A stretch of DNA of 64,000 bases from Nitrospirae bacterium JdFR-85. Lineage in GTDB: Bacteria; Nitrospirota; Thermodesulfovibrionia; Thermodesulfovibrionales; JdFR-85. The notes below the pieces were generated by a model. That model made no database searches, had not been told where the DNA came from, and worked only from the letters and a program-made list of their open reading frames with translations. How positions within the stretch are numbered: position 1 is the first letter of the stretch; each line of letters begins with the position of its first letter. The position numbers and the translations under genes were made by a program. Below are positions 18,407-55,575 of this stretch, in pieces. The stretch spans positions 1-64,000 of the forward strand of contig MTOU01000009.1 in assembly GCA_002011745.1 (NCBI GenBank). Direction: 5' to 3'.

Positions 18407-19222
18407 TCAAGACCACGATTGTATATACTCAACACAGTGGTTATAACCTGTGGGGTTGCCTACATCAAAGACCCTACCAGGCAGTCTACATCCTAAAAGC
18501 CTCTTCTGCTGTAGCATAAGCATCCTAACAGGCACATCAGTAAGCTCCCCCTCTCTGACCATTTCCCTCGCCCGCCTGATATAATCAAAAATATCCCTTT
18601 CCACAATGCTGAATCCACAGGTCCTTAGTTCCTTAGGGAATCTCAATCTGAAGTGTCCTTCACCCTTAGGAAGCACACTCTTTATTTCATAGAGCTCATC
18701 TCTAAGGGGCTTAATGTCCACTCTTCCTGCATTACCCACTGCATAGGATACCTCCTTTGTCACTTCCATCAGACCTATCACATCTGTACCAGTCTTGGAG
18801 TATGCCTCAACAAGTGTCTTCAGCGCCTCCTGCCGAGGCAGATGTAGATTATCAGGATAGACAACCCCGAAGGCATCGCCTGATACCACATCCTCAGCAA
18901 GAGCTATTGCATCAGCCTCACCAAGAGGTTCACTCTGGTACAAGAATGAAACCTTAAGCTGCTGAATCGTCTCCTCTTCAGAGGGGTCTTCAAGAAATCT
19001 CCTTCTTACAGAGGGGTCCTCTATATAGGCCCTCAGTATCTCTTTCCTTTTGCTGATTATGAGAGCAACTTTATGGATACCCGCTCTCAGGGCCTCCTTT
19101 AATGAATAATGGATGACAGGCCATCTGCCCACAGGAAGCATCTCCTTCGGAAGAGATGGATTTACATGTCTCATCCTCTTCCCAAGACCTGCAGCAGGTA
19201 TAATCACCCATTCAATCGTCAT
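18407..19222 (-). CDS. galU: UTP-glucose-1-phosphate uridylyltransferase-like nucleotidyltransferase
   Basis: VIIPAAGLGKRMRHVNPSLPKEMLPVGRWPVI. Confidence 0.8.
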   Translation of the reverse strand: MTIEWVIIPAAGLGKRMRHVNPSLPKEMLPVGRWPVIHYSLKEALRAGIHKVALIISKRKEILRAYIEDPSVRRRFLEDPSEEETIQQLKVSFLYQSEPLGEADAIALAEDVVSGDAFGVVYPDNLHLPRQEALKTLVEAYSKTGTDVIGLMEVTKEVSYAVGNAGRVDIKPLRDELYEIKSVLPKGEGHFRLRFPKELRTCGFSIVERDIFDYIRRAREMVREGELTDVPVRMLMLQQKRLLGCRLPGRVFDVGNPTGYNHCVEYIQSWS

Positions 19223-19242
19223 TCTCAGAGACTCAGAAACCT

Positions 19243-20772
19243 TTAAACCTTCGCCTCAGTTACCCGGAGAACCTCTTCAAGGGTGGTTAAACCCGCTGCT
19301 ACTTTCTGGATACCTGTCTCAAGCAGGGTCTTCATACCCTGTCTTACTGCCACCTCTTTTATTTCCTGTGAGGAGACATCCTTTTTGATCAGTTTTCTTA
19401 TGTTACTGTCCAGATACAGGAGCTCAAATATCCCTGTCCTGCCATAGTAACCTGTATACTGACACCTCTGACACCCTCTACCCCTGAAGAGCCTCTCCAC
19501 ATTGATCTGCATCGCACTAAAATAAGAGAGTTCATTCTCATTGGGTGTGTATTCATATCTACATTCAGCACATATCAGCCTTACAAGCCTCTGGGCAATA
19601 ACGCAGAGTAGTGAAGAAGAAAGCAGAAAGGGCTCCACTCCCATGTCCACAAGTCTTGTAACGGCCGAGGAGGCGTCATTTGTATGGAGCGTGCTCAAAA
19701 CAAGATGTCCTGTGAGGGATGCCTGCACAGCTATCTCTGCTGTCTCAATATCCCTGATCTCACCCACCATAATAACATCAGGGTCCTGTCTTAGGATAGA
19801 CCTCAATCCCGTAGCAAAGGTAAGCCCTATTTTGGGGTTTACCTGTATCTGGCCTATACCCCTTAACTGATACTCCACAGGGTCCTCTACAGTTATTATG
19901 TTCTTCTCCGTGGTATGTATCCTGTTCAGTGCTGCATAGAGTGTGGTGGTCTTTCCACTGCCTGTAGGCCCTGTGACGAGTATTATACCGCTCTGATTGT
20001 TGAGCAGCCTCTCAAAGAGGCTCTGCTCTGCCGGTTCCATCCCCAACTCTGTAAGACCTATTACTCCATGTCTACGATCGAGAAGCCTCAGCACAACCCT
20101 TTCACCATGTACAGTGGGAATAACAGAGACCCTCACATCAATATCTCTTCCACCAATAAGAAGACGAATTCTTCCATCCTGTGGGAGTCTCTTCTCTGCT
20201 ATATCAAGCCCTGCCATGATCTTCACCCTGCTCACAAGGGCGTCTTGTATTAGCTTAGGAGGCTTCAATACACTCCTCAGTACCCCATCGATCCTCATCC
20301 TCACATCAAGCTCATTCTCGTAGGGTTCTATATGGATATCCGATGCCCTCTCCTTCACAGCCTGTTGTAGAAGTGCATTCAGGAGTCTGATAATCGGGGC
20401 ATCACTTGTTAACTCAAGTATATCCTTTGGAGACTCGAATTCTGTAGCAACCGCACTCAGGTCTTCCCCTGAGATGGTCTGCATCACCTCCTCTGCAGAA
20501 CCTATCTGCCCGTAGAGTCTGTTTATCTCCTCAAGGAGAGTCTTCTCGTCTACCTCAATCGGATAAGGCAGGGCAGCCTTCTGGATTGCCAGGTCCCTTA
20601 AGGCAAAAATCCCATTGATGCCGGACACAAGACCGAAGAGCTTCCCGTCAATTACTCTAAGGGGCAGTACTAAATTCTTCTTTGAAAAAGAGATAGGGAC
20701 TTCCTTCAGAAGAGAGAGGTCAGGTTCTATGTTACTGTACTCTGAATGGGTAGTTTGGTTCTGCATACTCAA
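19243..20772 (-). CDS. gspE: Type II secretion ATPase GspE
   Basis: GPTGSGKTTTLYAAL; GEIRDIETAEIAVQASLTGHLVLSTLHTNDA; C-x2-C...C-x2-C zinc motif. Confidence 0.95.
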   Translation of the reverse strand: MSMQNQTTHSEYSNIEPDLSLLKEVPISFSKKNLVLPLRVIDGKLFGLVSGINGIFALRDLAIQKAALPYPIEVDEKTLLEEINRLYGQIGSAEEVMQTISGEDLSAVATEFESPKDILELTSDAPIIRLLNALLQQAVKERASDIHIEPYENELDVRMRIDGVLRSVLKPPKLIQDALVSRVKIMAGLDIAEKRLPQDGRIRLLIGGRDIDVRVSVIPTVHGERVVLRLLDRRHGVIGLTELGMEPAEQSLFERLLNNQSGIILVTGPTGSGKTTTLYAALNRIHTTEKNIITVEDPVEYQLRGIGQIQVNPKIGLTFATGLRSILRQDPDVIMVGEIRDIETAEIAVQASLTGHLVLSTLHTNDASSAVTRLVDMGVEPFLLSSSLLCVIAQRLVRLICAECRYEYTPNENELSYFSAMQINVERLFRGRGCQRCQYTGYYGRTGIFELLYLDSNIRKLIKKDVSSQEIKEVAVRQGMKTLLETGIQKVAAGLTTLEEVLRVTEAKV

Positions 20773-44975: not shown

Positions 44976-47108
44976 ATGGGATTCTGGTCTGACATAAAGA
45001 GGGATTTTGAGGCCGTATTTGAGCGTGACCCTGCTGCAAGGAGTAAGCTTGAGGTGATACTCACATATCCAGGATTCCATGCCATCTTCTTTCACCGTAT
45101 AAGCCATGCACTATGGAAGATGAAGATTCCGGTAATACCAAGGCTTCTGTCACATATAGTCAGAATCTTTACAGGTATAGAGATACATCCTGCAGCAAGA
45201 ATAGGCCCTGGATTCTTTATTGACCATGGTATGGGTGTAGTGATCGGAGAGACTACCGAGATTGGTGAAAACTGTCTCCTTTATCAAGGTGTAACCTTGG
45301 GTGGTACAGGCAAGGAGAGGGGTAAACGTCATCCCACCCTTGGAGACAACGTGGTTGTTGGTGCAGGGGCAAAGATACTGGGTGCAATAAGGATCGGGAA
45401 TAATGTTAAAATAGGTGCTAATGCAGTAGTGCTTAAGTCTGTGCCTGACCACTCAATAGTGGTCGGGGTGCCTGGTAGGGTTATAAAGAAGAAGATCCTA
45501 AGGATGACGGACAGAGGCATTGAAGAGGCACTTGACCACATACATATGCCTGACCCGATTGAGGAGAAATTTAAACAAATAGAGTTTCACTTAGGACAGT
45601 TGGAGAAAAAACTTGAAAGACTGGAGGGTAAGGGAGGCAGGATGAGGATATACAATACTCTGACAGGTAAAAAGGATGAATTCACCCCAATTGAACAGGG
45701 TAAAGTAAGGATCTATGTATGTGGTGTCACAGTATATGATTACTGCCATGTGGGGCATGCAAGGAGTGCAATCGTCTTTGATGTTATAAGGAGATACTTC
45801 AAGCACAAGGGCTTTGAGGTAAAATACATAAGAAACTTCACAGACATTGATGATAAGATCATTAAACGTGCCAATGAAGAGGGAATCCCATGGCATGAGG
45901 TGGCAAAGAAATACACAGAGGAGTATTATCAGGATATGGATGCCCTTGGGGTTGAAAGGGCAGATGTAGAGCCAAGGGCAACAGAGTATATAAATGAGAT
46001 GATAGAAATGATCCAGGGTCTTATTGACAAGGGCTATGCCTATGTGGTGGACGGTAATGTCTACTTTGAGGTGGAGAAATTCGGTGAATATGGGAAACTC
46101 TCTAAGAGGTCAAAGGATGAGATGCTTGCAGGTGCAAGAGTTGAGGTGGATGAGAGAAAAAAGAACCCACTTGATTTCGCCCTCTGGAAGGCATCTAAGG
46201 AAGGGGAGCCTTCATGGCCTTCTCCATGGGGAGAAGGTAGACCCGGATGGCATATAGAGTGCTCTGTGATGAGTATGAGGCTTTTGGGAGAGACTTTTGA
46301 TATCCATGGAGGAGGTGCTGACCTCATATTCCCCCATCATGAGAATGAGATAGCCCAGTCAGAGGCATTTACAGGGAAGCCCTTTGTGAGGTACTGGATC
46401 CATAATGGATTCATTACTGTATCAAAGGAGAAGATGTCCAAATCCCTCGGTAACTTCTTCACCATAAGGGAGGTACTGAAGAGATTTGATCCAGAGGTGC
46501 TTAGGGTCTTTCTGCTTTCTACCCACTACAGAAGCCCAATCGAGTTCTCCTATGAGCAACTACTTGATGCAGAAGCATCGGTTGATAGATTCTATACCAC
46601 TGTAATGAGAGTGGAGCAGTATCTTAAATTAATAAAAGAAGATGGCAGAGACACAGATGAAGAACCCTTAGCTGAGGCACTTGAAAAATTTCCTGAAAGG
46701 TTTGAAGAGGCGATGGATGATGACTTCAATACAGCCCTTGCATTGGGGCATATATTTGAACTCATCAAGGAACTCAACAGGTATCTGGACAGAAGACCCC
46801 AGGGCATAAAGGCAAAAGAGACCATTGAGAAGGCCCTCAGCCTCATCAAAAAGTACTCAGCAGTACTGAATATCTTCCAGAGAACACCCTCAGAATGGCA
46901 GATATCACTTTTGAGGACAAAAGGGATTAAACTCACCCCAGAGGAGATTGAAGAGAAGATCAAAGAAAGACAGCAGGCAAGGGCCAGAAAGGACTGGCAG
47001 ACTGCGGACTCCATAAGAGAGGCCCTTTATGAACAGGGTATTGTGCTTGAGGATACCCGTCATGGAACGGTCTGGAGGGTAAAGGTAGGAGAAGAGATAC
47101 CTGTCTGA
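44976..47108 (+). CDS. cysE-cysS: Serine O-acetyltransferase fused in frame to cysteinyl-tRNA synthetase
   Basis: N-terminal CysE hexapeptide domain (DIHPAARIGPG-like, IDHGMGVVIGETTEIGENCLLYQGVTLGGTG), then MRIYNTLTGKKDEFTPIEQGKVRIYVCGVTVYDYCHVGHARS and KMSKSLGN. Confidence 0.93.
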   Translation: MGFWSDIKRDFEAVFERDPAARSKLEVILTYPGFHAIFFHRISHALWKMKIPVIPRLLSHIVRIFTGIEIHPAARIGPGFFIDHGMGVVIGETTEIGENCLLYQGVTLGGTGKERGKRHPTLGDNVVVGAGAKILGAIRIGNNVKIGANAVVLKSVPDHSIVVGVPGRVIKKKILRMTDRGIEEALDHIHMPDPIEEKFKQIEFHLGQLEKKLERLEGKGGRMRIYNTLTGKKDEFTPIEQGKVRIYVCGVTVYDYCHVGHARSAIVFDVIRRYFKHKGFEVKYIRNFTDIDDKIIKRANEEGIPWHEVAKKYTEEYYQDMDALGVERADVEPRATEYINEMIEMIQGLIDKGYAYVVDGNVYFEVEKFGEYGKLSKRSKDEMLAGARVEVDERKKNPLDFALWKASKEGEPSWPSPWGEGRPGWHIECSVMSMRLLGETFDIHGGGADLIFPHHENEIAQSEAFTGKPFVRYWIHNGFITVSKEKMSKSLGNFFTIREVLKRFDPEVLRVFLLSTHYRSPIEFSYEQLLDAEASVDRFYTTVMRVEQYLKLIKEDGRDTDEEPLAEALEKFPERFEEAMDDDFNTALALGHIFELIKELNRYLDRRPQGIKAKETIEKALSLIKKYSAVLNIFQRTPSEWQISLLRTKGIKLTPEEIEEKIKERQQARARKDWQTADSIREALYEQGIVLEDTRHGTVWRVKVGEEIPV

Positions 47109-48703: not shown

Positions 48704-51172
48704 CTATGAAGTTGGTCCTGATCCGTTGTCTCTCCGTGGCTCGATCTTAACAGGAGTTGGATGTGCCCTGCCTTCTGGAGAATATGAGACAAGGGCATTT
48801 ACTCTTGCATGAGCAAAGTGTACAGGAACAAAGAGCATCCCTGTGGGCACCTCTTCAGAGACCCTCGCCTTGATGAATACTGATCCCTTTGCAGAGGTGA
48901 TCTTTATAAAAGAACCGTCTTCTACAGAAAACTTCTCTGCATCTTCAGGAGATATCTGCACAAAAGCATCTGAAAGCACGTGGCTTAGACTCTTTGACAT
49001 CACTGAGAGTGCGCCTGAGTGCTGCATAATGTTTCCTGTAACCATCAGTATGGGGTACTCCTCTGTAGGCATCTCCGGTAGGTCCCATTTAACAGGAGAG
49101 AATCTCCACCGGTGCTCACCTCTGTCCTCATCTATTCTGCTGATCTCATCTTGTAACTGATATAACTCTACTGTACCAAGTGCTGAGCCCATCACTCTTG
49201 CAATATTCCGGATGATCTGCCAGTCAGGTATTGCCTCACCTTGAGGTGAAACCACCTTTCTGAATGGCTGAGGTAGCCCCTGTGAGTTGATAAAAGTACC
49301 ATCCTTTTCTGCCCATGCTGCTGCTGGTAGAACTACATGAGCCAATTTTGCAGTCTCTGACATACGGATGTCCTGCACCACAAGAAGCTCCAGTGCTTTC
49401 AAGGTCTCCTCAATCCGCTGGGCATCCGGCATTGTCACAAGGGGGTCCTCACCCATTATATATAATGCCTTAAGAGAGCCAGGATTATAAAGCATTTCAT
49501 AAAGATCCTTGCCATCTTTCAGAGGTCTCATACCCACAAACCATGCCCCGAGGGTGTTTGAATAATCAGCAGGCATCTGAAGTGCATCAGGCCCTTCACC
49601 AAGAAGCATCAGGAGATTGGCTGCAGTCTTTACTGTCTCCACACCTTTCTGGTTTTCTGCAGCCCCTACTGTCAGGGCTATCAGCCTTGTCTCAGCCTTG
49701 GTGAAGACCTCACAGGCCTCTAAGAACTCTTCTTTCTGAAGTCCTGTGATCTCTGAAACCCTCTCAGGGGTATACTCTTTTACTGATTCTTCAAGGGTTT
49801 CTAACCCTTCTGCCCTTAAATCTCCTTTAAGGTGAAAACCTTCTTTCAGGACATAATTTATCATCCCGTTCAAGAAGGCCACGGCTGTTGCAGGCCTTGG
49901 CCTCAGCCACTTTGTGGAGCGTCTTGCAAGCTTTGTCATTCGTGGATCTATTACCATCAGATAGGAACCCTCATTTTTTGCCTCGATAAATTTGAGTCCA
50001 AATATGGGATGTGTTGAGGTGATATCTGACTCCAGCACCATCAGTACTTCTTTGCCAAGGGGTGAGTTGAGTTTTACTGGACTGAATTTGATACCATAGG
50101 TCTCCTCAAGTCCCTTTACTGTCCAGTAATAGCCCAATCTCGCAGATGTATCCAGATTATCACTGCCTATCACCTCTCTCATAAACCTTTGGAGCATGTA
50201 ATTATCCTCAAGAGAGGCCCTTGTGGAGCCTATTGCACCAATACTCACTCCTCCTGATGCACTTTTTATACTCTTCAGTTTTTCTGCAATATAGTAGATC
50301 GCCTCCTCCCATGTCACCTCTTTCAACTCACCATCTTTTCTCAGAAGGGGGCTCTTAAGCCTCGCCTCTGAATATATGAAATCAAAACCGAATCTGCCCT
50401 TACCACAGAGGTCTCCTTCACTCACGCCTTTACCATCCACTCCCCTTACCCTGAGGATCCTGCCTTCTCTTAGGTCAAGAGTAAGGGTACAGCCCACACT
50501 ACAGTAAGGACATATACTGTCATAACTCTCAAGGAACCATGCCCTTGCCCTATACTTAAAAGGCTTTGCCCCTAAGGCACCCACGGGACAGGCATCTATA
50601 CACTGTCCACAGAACTCACAATCCAAAGTCTCTTCAAAGGCAGGACTGATCTTTGTCTTAAATCCTCTGCCAATAAAGTTTATTGCTCCTACACCCTGAT
50701 GTTCCCAGCAGACCCTTACACATCTGCCACAGAGGATACATCTGTTGGGATTTCTTTCTATAAGGGGACTCGTTGCCTCTGGCTCGTGTTTCCTCTCTGC
50801 ATAGAACCTACTCTGGGATGGACCATATTTATATGCAAGGTCCTGAAGCTCACACTCACCTGCCTTATCACACACAGGACAGTCCAGGGGATGGTGTACC
50901 AACAGCAGTTCAAGCACTGTCTTACGCGCCTTCTGAAGCACTGGCGTGTTGGTATGGATCACCATTCCCTCCTCAGCAGGCGTTGAGCAGGCTGCCATCA
51001 GTTTCCTCTGACCTTCCACCTCCACAAGACAGAGCCTGCATCCTCCATATGGCTTAAGCCTTCTGTCCCAACATAGATGAGGAATATATATATTGTTGGC
51101 CTTTGCTACCTCAAGAATGGTCTGGCCCTTTTCTGCCTGGACCTTTTTACCATCAATAGTTAGTTCCATCAT
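48704..51172 (-). CDS. nuoG: NuoG-like iron-sulfur/molybdopterin-oxidoreductase-fold subunit
   Basis: N-terminal 2Fe-2S (HLCWDRRLKPYGGCRLCLVEVEG); HHPLDCPVCDKAGECELQ; CILCGRCVRVCWEHQG; CEFCGQCIDACPVGAL; Mo-fold C terminus. Confidence 0.9.
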   Translation of the reverse strand: MMELTIDGKKVQAEKGQTILEVAKANNIYIPHLCWDRRLKPYGGCRLCLVEVEGQRKLMAACSTPAEEGMVIHTNTPVLQKARKTVLELLLVHHPLDCPVCDKAGECELQDLAYKYGPSQSRFYAERKHEPEATSPLIERNPNRCILCGRCVRVCWEHQGVGAINFIGRGFKTKISPAFEETLDCEFCGQCIDACPVGALGAKPFKYRARAWFLESYDSICPYCSVGCTLTLDLREGRILRVRGVDGKGVSEGDLCGKGRFGFDFIYSEARLKSPLLRKDGELKEVTWEEAIYYIAEKLKSIKSASGGVSIGAIGSTRASLEDNYMLQRFMREVIGSDNLDTSARLGYYWTVKGLEETYGIKFSPVKLNSPLGKEVLMVLESDITSTHPIFGLKFIEAKNEGSYLMVIDPRMTKLARRSTKWLRPRPATAVAFLNGMINYVLKEGFHLKGDLRAEGLETLEESVKEYTPERVSEITGLQKEEFLEACEVFTKAETRLIALTVGAAENQKGVETVKTAANLLMLLGEGPDALQMPADYSNTLGAWFVGMRPLKDGKDLYEMLYNPGSLKALYIMGEDPLVTMPDAQRIEETLKALELLVVQDIRMSETAKLAHVVLPAAAWAEKDGTFINSQGLPQPFRKVVSPQGEAIPDWQIIRNIARVMGSALGTVELYQLQDEISRIDEDRGEHRWRFSPVKWDLPEMPTEEYPILMVTGNIMQHSGALSVMSKSLSHVLSDAFVQISPEDAEKFSVEDGSFIKITSAKGSVFIKARVSEEVPTGMLFVPVHFAHARVNALVSYSPEGRAHPTPVKIEPRRDNGSGPTS

Positions 51173-55360: not shown

Positions 55361-55470
55361 GCTTATACTATCGTTTTAACCAAATTTATCAGAAAGAATT
55401 AGAGGCTATATCTATTTGACATTCCTATCTTAATTATCAAATAATTCTATATTAATGCTTTCTACTAAGT

Positions 55471-55575
55471 GAGGGGTAAGGGGCCGGTGCCCCGGCTGGT
55501 CTGCAAAACCAGCAGTGGAGCAAGATGTCTCGTGGAGACTGCTCCTGTGGGTTCGACTCCCACTACCCCTCTCCA
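55471..55575 (+). tRNA. tRNA-Sec-like cysteine tRNA (anticodon GCA, 8/5 branch, giant variable arm, U discriminator, CCA encoded)
   Basis: Acceptor GAGGGGTA/TACCCCTC (8 bp); D arm GGGGC-CGGT-GCCCC; anticodon arm CTGGT-CTGCAAA-ACCAG; variable arm GGAGCA...TGCTCC plus GTCTC-GTG-GAGAC; T arm GTGGG-TTCGACT-CCCAC; then T, CCA. Confidence 0.85.

Follow-up and report, generated by a model that had tools for sequence, protein, structure and literature searches.

Identification of a cysteine tRNA with a selenocysteine tRNA fold

The window analyzed here, the whole stretch of 64,000 nucleotides at positions 1–64,000 of contig MTOU01000009.1 from Nitrospirae bacterium JdFR-85 (assembly GCA_002011745.1), contains a tRNA gene on the forward strand at positions 55471–55575, complete with an encoded CCA end. 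The gene specifies a real, conserved, cysteine-type tRNA that folds like the selenocysteine (Sec) tRNA, tRNA-Sec. By Rfam comparison, minimum free energy (MFE) folding, homologues and a covariance model, it is classified as a tRNA-Cys(GCA) of the selC*/tRNAReC type. The 8 bp acceptor stem (5’ strand at 55471–55478, partner at 55564–55571) is supported by compensatory changes among 88 sequences and is separated by one nucleotide (55479) from the D arm (55480–55493), whose 5 bp stem and 4 nt loop are evident from the fold and from pair counts in homologues. The GCA anticodon lies at 55503–55505 and is present in all 30 homologues fetched by BLAST. A long variable arm (55517–55545) forms two stacked helices in the MFE fold, GGAGCA/TGCTCC and GTCTC/GAGAC, and is followed by the T arm, GTGGG-TTCGACT-CCCAC (55547–55563), with a bulge-free 5 bp stem. 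Comparison with homologues and tRNA-Sec genes places at 55572 the discriminator U73, a cysteine identity element, where tRNA-Sec has G73.

An initial annotation made from the sequence alone had proposed this Sec-shaped cloverleaf with its 8/5 branch, GCA anticodon, U73 and CCA end, and the sequence, the free MFE fold and the Rfam tRNA-Sec model all agree with it. Folded without constraint, the tRNA reaches -55.2 kcal/mol (z -4.24 relative to dinucleotide shuffles, with 0 of 200 shuffles equally stable) as a cloverleaf with an 8 bp acceptor stem, a 5 bp D stem with a 4 nt loop, a 6 bp anticodon stem, a two-helix variable arm and a 5 bp T stem. The tRNA-Sec covariance comparison that the annotation had suggested (RF01852) matches 55471–55575 at 55.6 bits, above the gathering score of 47 (E 1.2e-10), and a standard 7/5 fold is not obtained. 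The tRNA also scores 96.4 bits with covariance model R1, and the pattern CTGCAAA...GGTTCRANTCC-N11-TCCA has one match in the window where none is expected by chance. ARAGORN makes no call at 55471–55575; a tRNA of this class is overlooked by a common gene finder.

A promoter-like sequence, TTGACA-18-AATAAT, matches the consensus at 11 of 12 positions and is located 25 nt 5’ of the tRNA on the same strand (55416–55445). The site that had earlier been taken to suggest transcription is thus present, although three such sites occur in the region against 2.3 expected and a lone site is weak evidence. Across 89 homologous loci, sites matching at 9 or more of 12 positions number 37 versus ~12 in shuffles, and those matching at 10 or more number 13 versus ~2. 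Promoter-like sites therefore suggest that the tRNA is transcribed.

Conservation and distribution

A DNA search of 150 relatives from the same order, in which neither the anticodon nor the discriminator was required, yields matches in 60 genomes. All 30 loci fetched have the GCA anticodon, U73, CCA, a T arm of the form GTGGG-TTCRAYT-CCCAC, and pairing at seven or more of the eight acceptor positions. A covariance model that separates Cys-type tRNAs (at least 62 bits) from true tRNA-Sec (at most 61.5 bits) by a narrow boundary counts 66 copies in 62 of the 150 relatives, and some relatives (G083, G098, G102 and G044) contain two copies. A pattern scan of genome contigs finds at least 80 loci, of which at least 75 fold properly, with five of 80 discarded as non-folding (L104, L106, L129, L130 and L142). 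Assigned by record titles, the folding loci among the matches listed span Nitrospirota, Firmicutes, Actinobacteriota and Chloroflexota. Viral spread was considered and rejected: none of three pattern matches in viral contigs has a fold evident by eye, and phage records contain only 27 nt T-arm matches.

Comparison of 88 distinct homologues reveals compensatory changes in the stems far in excess of column shuffles. Acceptor pairs 1–6 are kept in 87–88 of the 88, pair 7 in 83 and pair 8 in 78; the T pairs are kept in all 88 and the four D pairs counted in 87 of 87. Conservation of the anticodon stem extends over 5 bp, as a sixth pair occurs in only 25 of 88, approximately the chance level. Neither the anticodon loop nor the CCA end varies. 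A decaying pseudogene would fit the absence of an ARAGORN call, and decayed stems in homologues had been named as its expected sign; every stem is instead intact and covarying across phyla. Because GCA, U73 and CCA are conserved and the stems change in compensation, the pseudogene explanation is extremely improbable.

Selenocysteine and cysteine machinery in the genome

The genome containing the window (G000; 2.33 Mb, 47 contigs, 100% complete) also encodes a canonical tRNA-Cys(GCA) elsewhere, a true tRNA-Sec with a UCA anticodon and G73, SelA, and one SelB above the cut-off (C2:88789), with no second SelB found. A search for the canonical tRNA-Cys and selA, selB and selC, advised by the initial annotation, thus finds all of them, and the window tRNA coexists with a complete Sec system. 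The window itself contains a CysE-CysS fusion gene (44976–47108, forward strand) that joins a serine acetyltransferase (TIGR01172, 250 bits at 7–168) to a full-length cysteinyl-tRNA synthetase, CysRS (TIGR00435, 603 bits at 223–701). No full CysRS other than this fusion was detected in the genome, and for that reason we infer that it is likely the charging enzyme of the window tRNA, as had been suggested.

In-frame TGA codons occur at expected or plausible Sec positions in three genes of this genome: selD, fdhA and an FdnG-like gene. In selD (G000:C13:6948–7868, L216), the TGA lies in the context RAAG-U-AAKLG and is directly followed by a -22.5 kcal/mol hairpin; the fdhA context is ARY-U-HSATVAG. 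Among the 150 relatives, nearly every genome with a full selD match likewise has a TGA in frame where Sec is expected, and this near universality makes it useless for discriminating genomes with and without the Cys-type tRNA. The true tRNA-Sec gene (G000:C18:20847–20944, L198) adjoins a TGA-free formate dehydrogenase alpha gene (18758–20761), and the TGA-containing fdhA is on a different contig from tRNA-Sec. Within the window, an FdhA/NuoG-like protein (48704–51172, reverse strand) by eye seems to have neither Sec nor Cys at the FdhA catalytic Sec position.

Comparison with known tRNA classes

The window tRNA shares features with three types of tRNA. First, it has the 8/5 branch, compact D arm and long variable arm of bacterial tRNA-Sec (selC, RF01852), but tRNA-Sec combines these with UCA, G73 and a fixed variable-arm length, whereas this class has GCA, U73 and varying length. 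G73 is found in every tRNA-Sec gene read and U73 in every Cys-type tRNA, and the variable region of the homologues spans lengths of 21 to 55 nt, whereas the 19 tRNA-Sec genes read from the order share a single length. A tRNA-Sec anticodon variant that is serylated, converted by SelA and used to insert Sec at UGC/UGU would account for the Sec-like fold; it is highly improbable given the discriminator, the unconserved variable-arm length and the coexistence of a UCA tRNA-Sec in the same genomes. The same differences in discriminator and variable region make a hybrid substrate of seryl- and cysteinyl-tRNA synthetases, raised in the initial annotation, unlikely. Second, canonical tRNA-Cys has the same GCA and U73 but a 7/5 branch and a short variable loop in place of the 8/5 branch and long arm.

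Third, the tRNA resembles the selC* class of tRNA-Cys (Mukai et al. 2017, Nucleic Acids Res 45:2776, as described in PMC7609411). Common to both are the tRNA-Sec-like fold, 8 bp acceptor stem, compact D arm, long variable arm, U73 and the GCA anticodon, the class being defined by GCA (or UCA) with U73, and in both cases genuine tRNA-Sec and Sec machinery are present in the same genome. The review lists Nitrospirae among selC* holders, names four phyla, and, as far as its description of the class goes, links it to selenium genes only via a second SelB. It describes an A51a bulge as typical of the selC* T stem though dispensable for charging (PMC7609411). The T stem of the window tRNA, in contrast, is a plain 5 bp helix, as in 67 of 89 parsed homologues; the remaining 22, mostly Firmicutes, contain one bulged nucleotide. 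Judged from these sequences, the bulge marks a subgroup rather than the whole selC* class, and the window tRNA is assigned to a bulge-less subtype of an already known selC*/tRNAReC class. The reports of minor cysteine tRNAs with Sec-like folds that the initial annotation mentions accord with this published class.

The tRNAReC system likewise features a tRNA-Sec-like tRNA-Cys(GCA) alongside tRNA-Sec, and Desulfotomaculum relatives are within the present homologue set. Vargas-Rodriguez et al. (2018, RNA Biol 15:471) reportedly found that CysRS charges tRNAReC, that SelB binds it and that it can recode UGA as Cys. The activity was reportedly observed with a Desulfotomaculum nigrificans member, which differs from the window tRNA in sequence and phylum. 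The title of the tRNAReC recoding paper appears in the reference lists of PMC8762117 and PMC8124441.

Association with selenium genes

Distribution and gene order tie the tRNA to selenium metabolism. Outside Nitrospirota, 38 of 39 genomes with the tRNA (carriers among the matches listed) encode SelA, versus 1 of 14 control genomes, and a UCA/G73 tRNA-Sec is also present in 27 of 28 carriers. By comparison, selenium traits of any kind are reported for fewer than 40% of sequenced organisms (PMC5322559). Within the order, 32 of the 66 tRNA copies have yedF within 5 kb; for 13 of them it is within 1 kb, and in all 13 it is downstream on the same strand. YedF is encoded in 51 of 62 carriers and 31 of 88 non-carriers (Fisher p 8e-9, kinship ignored); such co-occurrence tests were made without phylogenetic correction, and their p-values overstate independence. 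Recurring neighbours among the at least 75 folding contig loci are YedF, LysR_Se (12 members, E≤1e-70) and YedE (7), and SelB is directly downstream of the tRNA in two loci. YedF, LysR_Se, YedE and SelB are all among the candidate selenium-metabolism genes of Lin et al. 2015 (PMC5322559). This linkage favours a role related to selenium rather than one in general Cys decoding.

A second, oddly shaped but ordinary tRNA-Cys, charged by CysRS and delivered by EF-Tu for UGC/UGU codons in general translation, is nonetheless a possible if rather unlikely alternative. GCA and U73 suit these codons without mismatch, and the promoter-like sites are consistent with such use. The genome, however, already has a canonical tRNA-Cys(GCA), and this explanation gives no reason for the tie to SelA or the clusters with yedF and LysR_Se. 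The 13 bp acceptor/T branch of tRNA-Sec disfavours EF-Tu, and a branch of this length also argues against an ordinary tRNA-Cys. Alternatively, the tRNA may have a non-decoding or mixed selenium-sulfur role, serving SelB, SelA or YedF as a substrate, sensor or sponge, either in the form of Cys-tRNA or simply as an RNA. The close same-strand linkage to yedF is in keeping with this idea, as are the TusA-like and DsrE-like domains of YedF, which suggest chalcogen transfer (PMC5322559). The invariant anticodon loop and CCA end are what decoding would require, and a non-decoding or mixed role of this kind is improbable.

Several other arrangements are found at these loci. One Nitrospirota metagenome-assembled genome contains two Cys-type tRNAs, each directly followed by selB (L081, 2597–4168; L083, 2261–4138); the L081 SelB terminates ~110 residues early and so lacks the C-terminal region expected to bind the SECIS element, and no remnant is found downstream. 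In seven loci (L082, L101, L126, L144, L150 and others), the tRNA is immediately adjacent to a gene for a transglutaminase-like protein of ~334 aa, and the one member tested has no NCBIfam match. A few unrelated genomes (L081, L085, L087 and L131) have double-cubane-cluster reductase and activase genes next to the tRNA. Three carriers without SelA (G046, G083 and G098) were considered as Cys-only decoders of UGA, which was rejected: G046 keeps a tRNA-Sec gene and a UGA-containing selD, and an assembly gap more likely explains the missing SelA in carriers of this type.

From the adjacent receiver/Fe-S redox operon, the initial annotation also considered possible a dedicated role of the tRNA in decoding Cys-rich or redox proteins. 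The operon, however, is encoded on the other strand, with its first gene 267 nt from the tRNA, and in 109 other loci the genes that flank the tRNA in the window do not recur beside it, except for two distant receiver/NuoE-like matches (32–40% identity). The redox-operon link is accordingly discarded, since these neighbours do not recur while selenium genes do.

A putative role in selenoprotein translation

The tRNA probably functions as described for tRNAReC. CysRS would charge the Sec-shaped tRNA with Cys by reading GCA and U73; SelB, rather than mainly EF-Tu, would then take the Cys-tRNA to the ribosome; and, with Sec-tRNA in short supply, Cys would enter selenoproteins at their SECIS-marked UGA (Sec) codons. 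We infer the charging, the delivery, the reading of UGA and the low-selenium condition from the work reported for D. nigrificans. The T stem of the window tRNA is identical to that of tRNA-Sec genes of the same order.

Several observations weigh against this role. GCA can read UGA only with a third-position mismatch. In the genome of the window itself, the tRNA is not beside selenium genes, yedF being located on a different contig (C2:130833). The tRNA is missing from more than half of the SelA-positive genomes of the order and is therefore dispensable or optional, and the SelA association is partly by descent. Finally, outside the order, in Firmicutes and Actinobacteriota, the T stem differs from that of the genome’s own tRNA-Sec, so a SelB contact common to both tRNAs is not apparent in those phyla and cannot serve as general evidence for SelB binding.

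As SelD makes the selenium donor and is itself UGA-encoded in nearly every genome of the order, the tRNA might enable SelD (and FdhA) to be made in a Cys form without Sec, such that Sec synthesis restarts, possibly under the control of LysR_Se; this extension is tentative and rather doubtful. Relative to the review, the present analysis adds a whole Nitrospirota order, carriers in Actinobacteriota and Chloroflexota, and the tie to SelA, yedF, LysR_Se and YedE. It also raises a testable question: is the same UGA read as Cys or as Sec according to selenium supply, rescuing UGA-encoded SelD?
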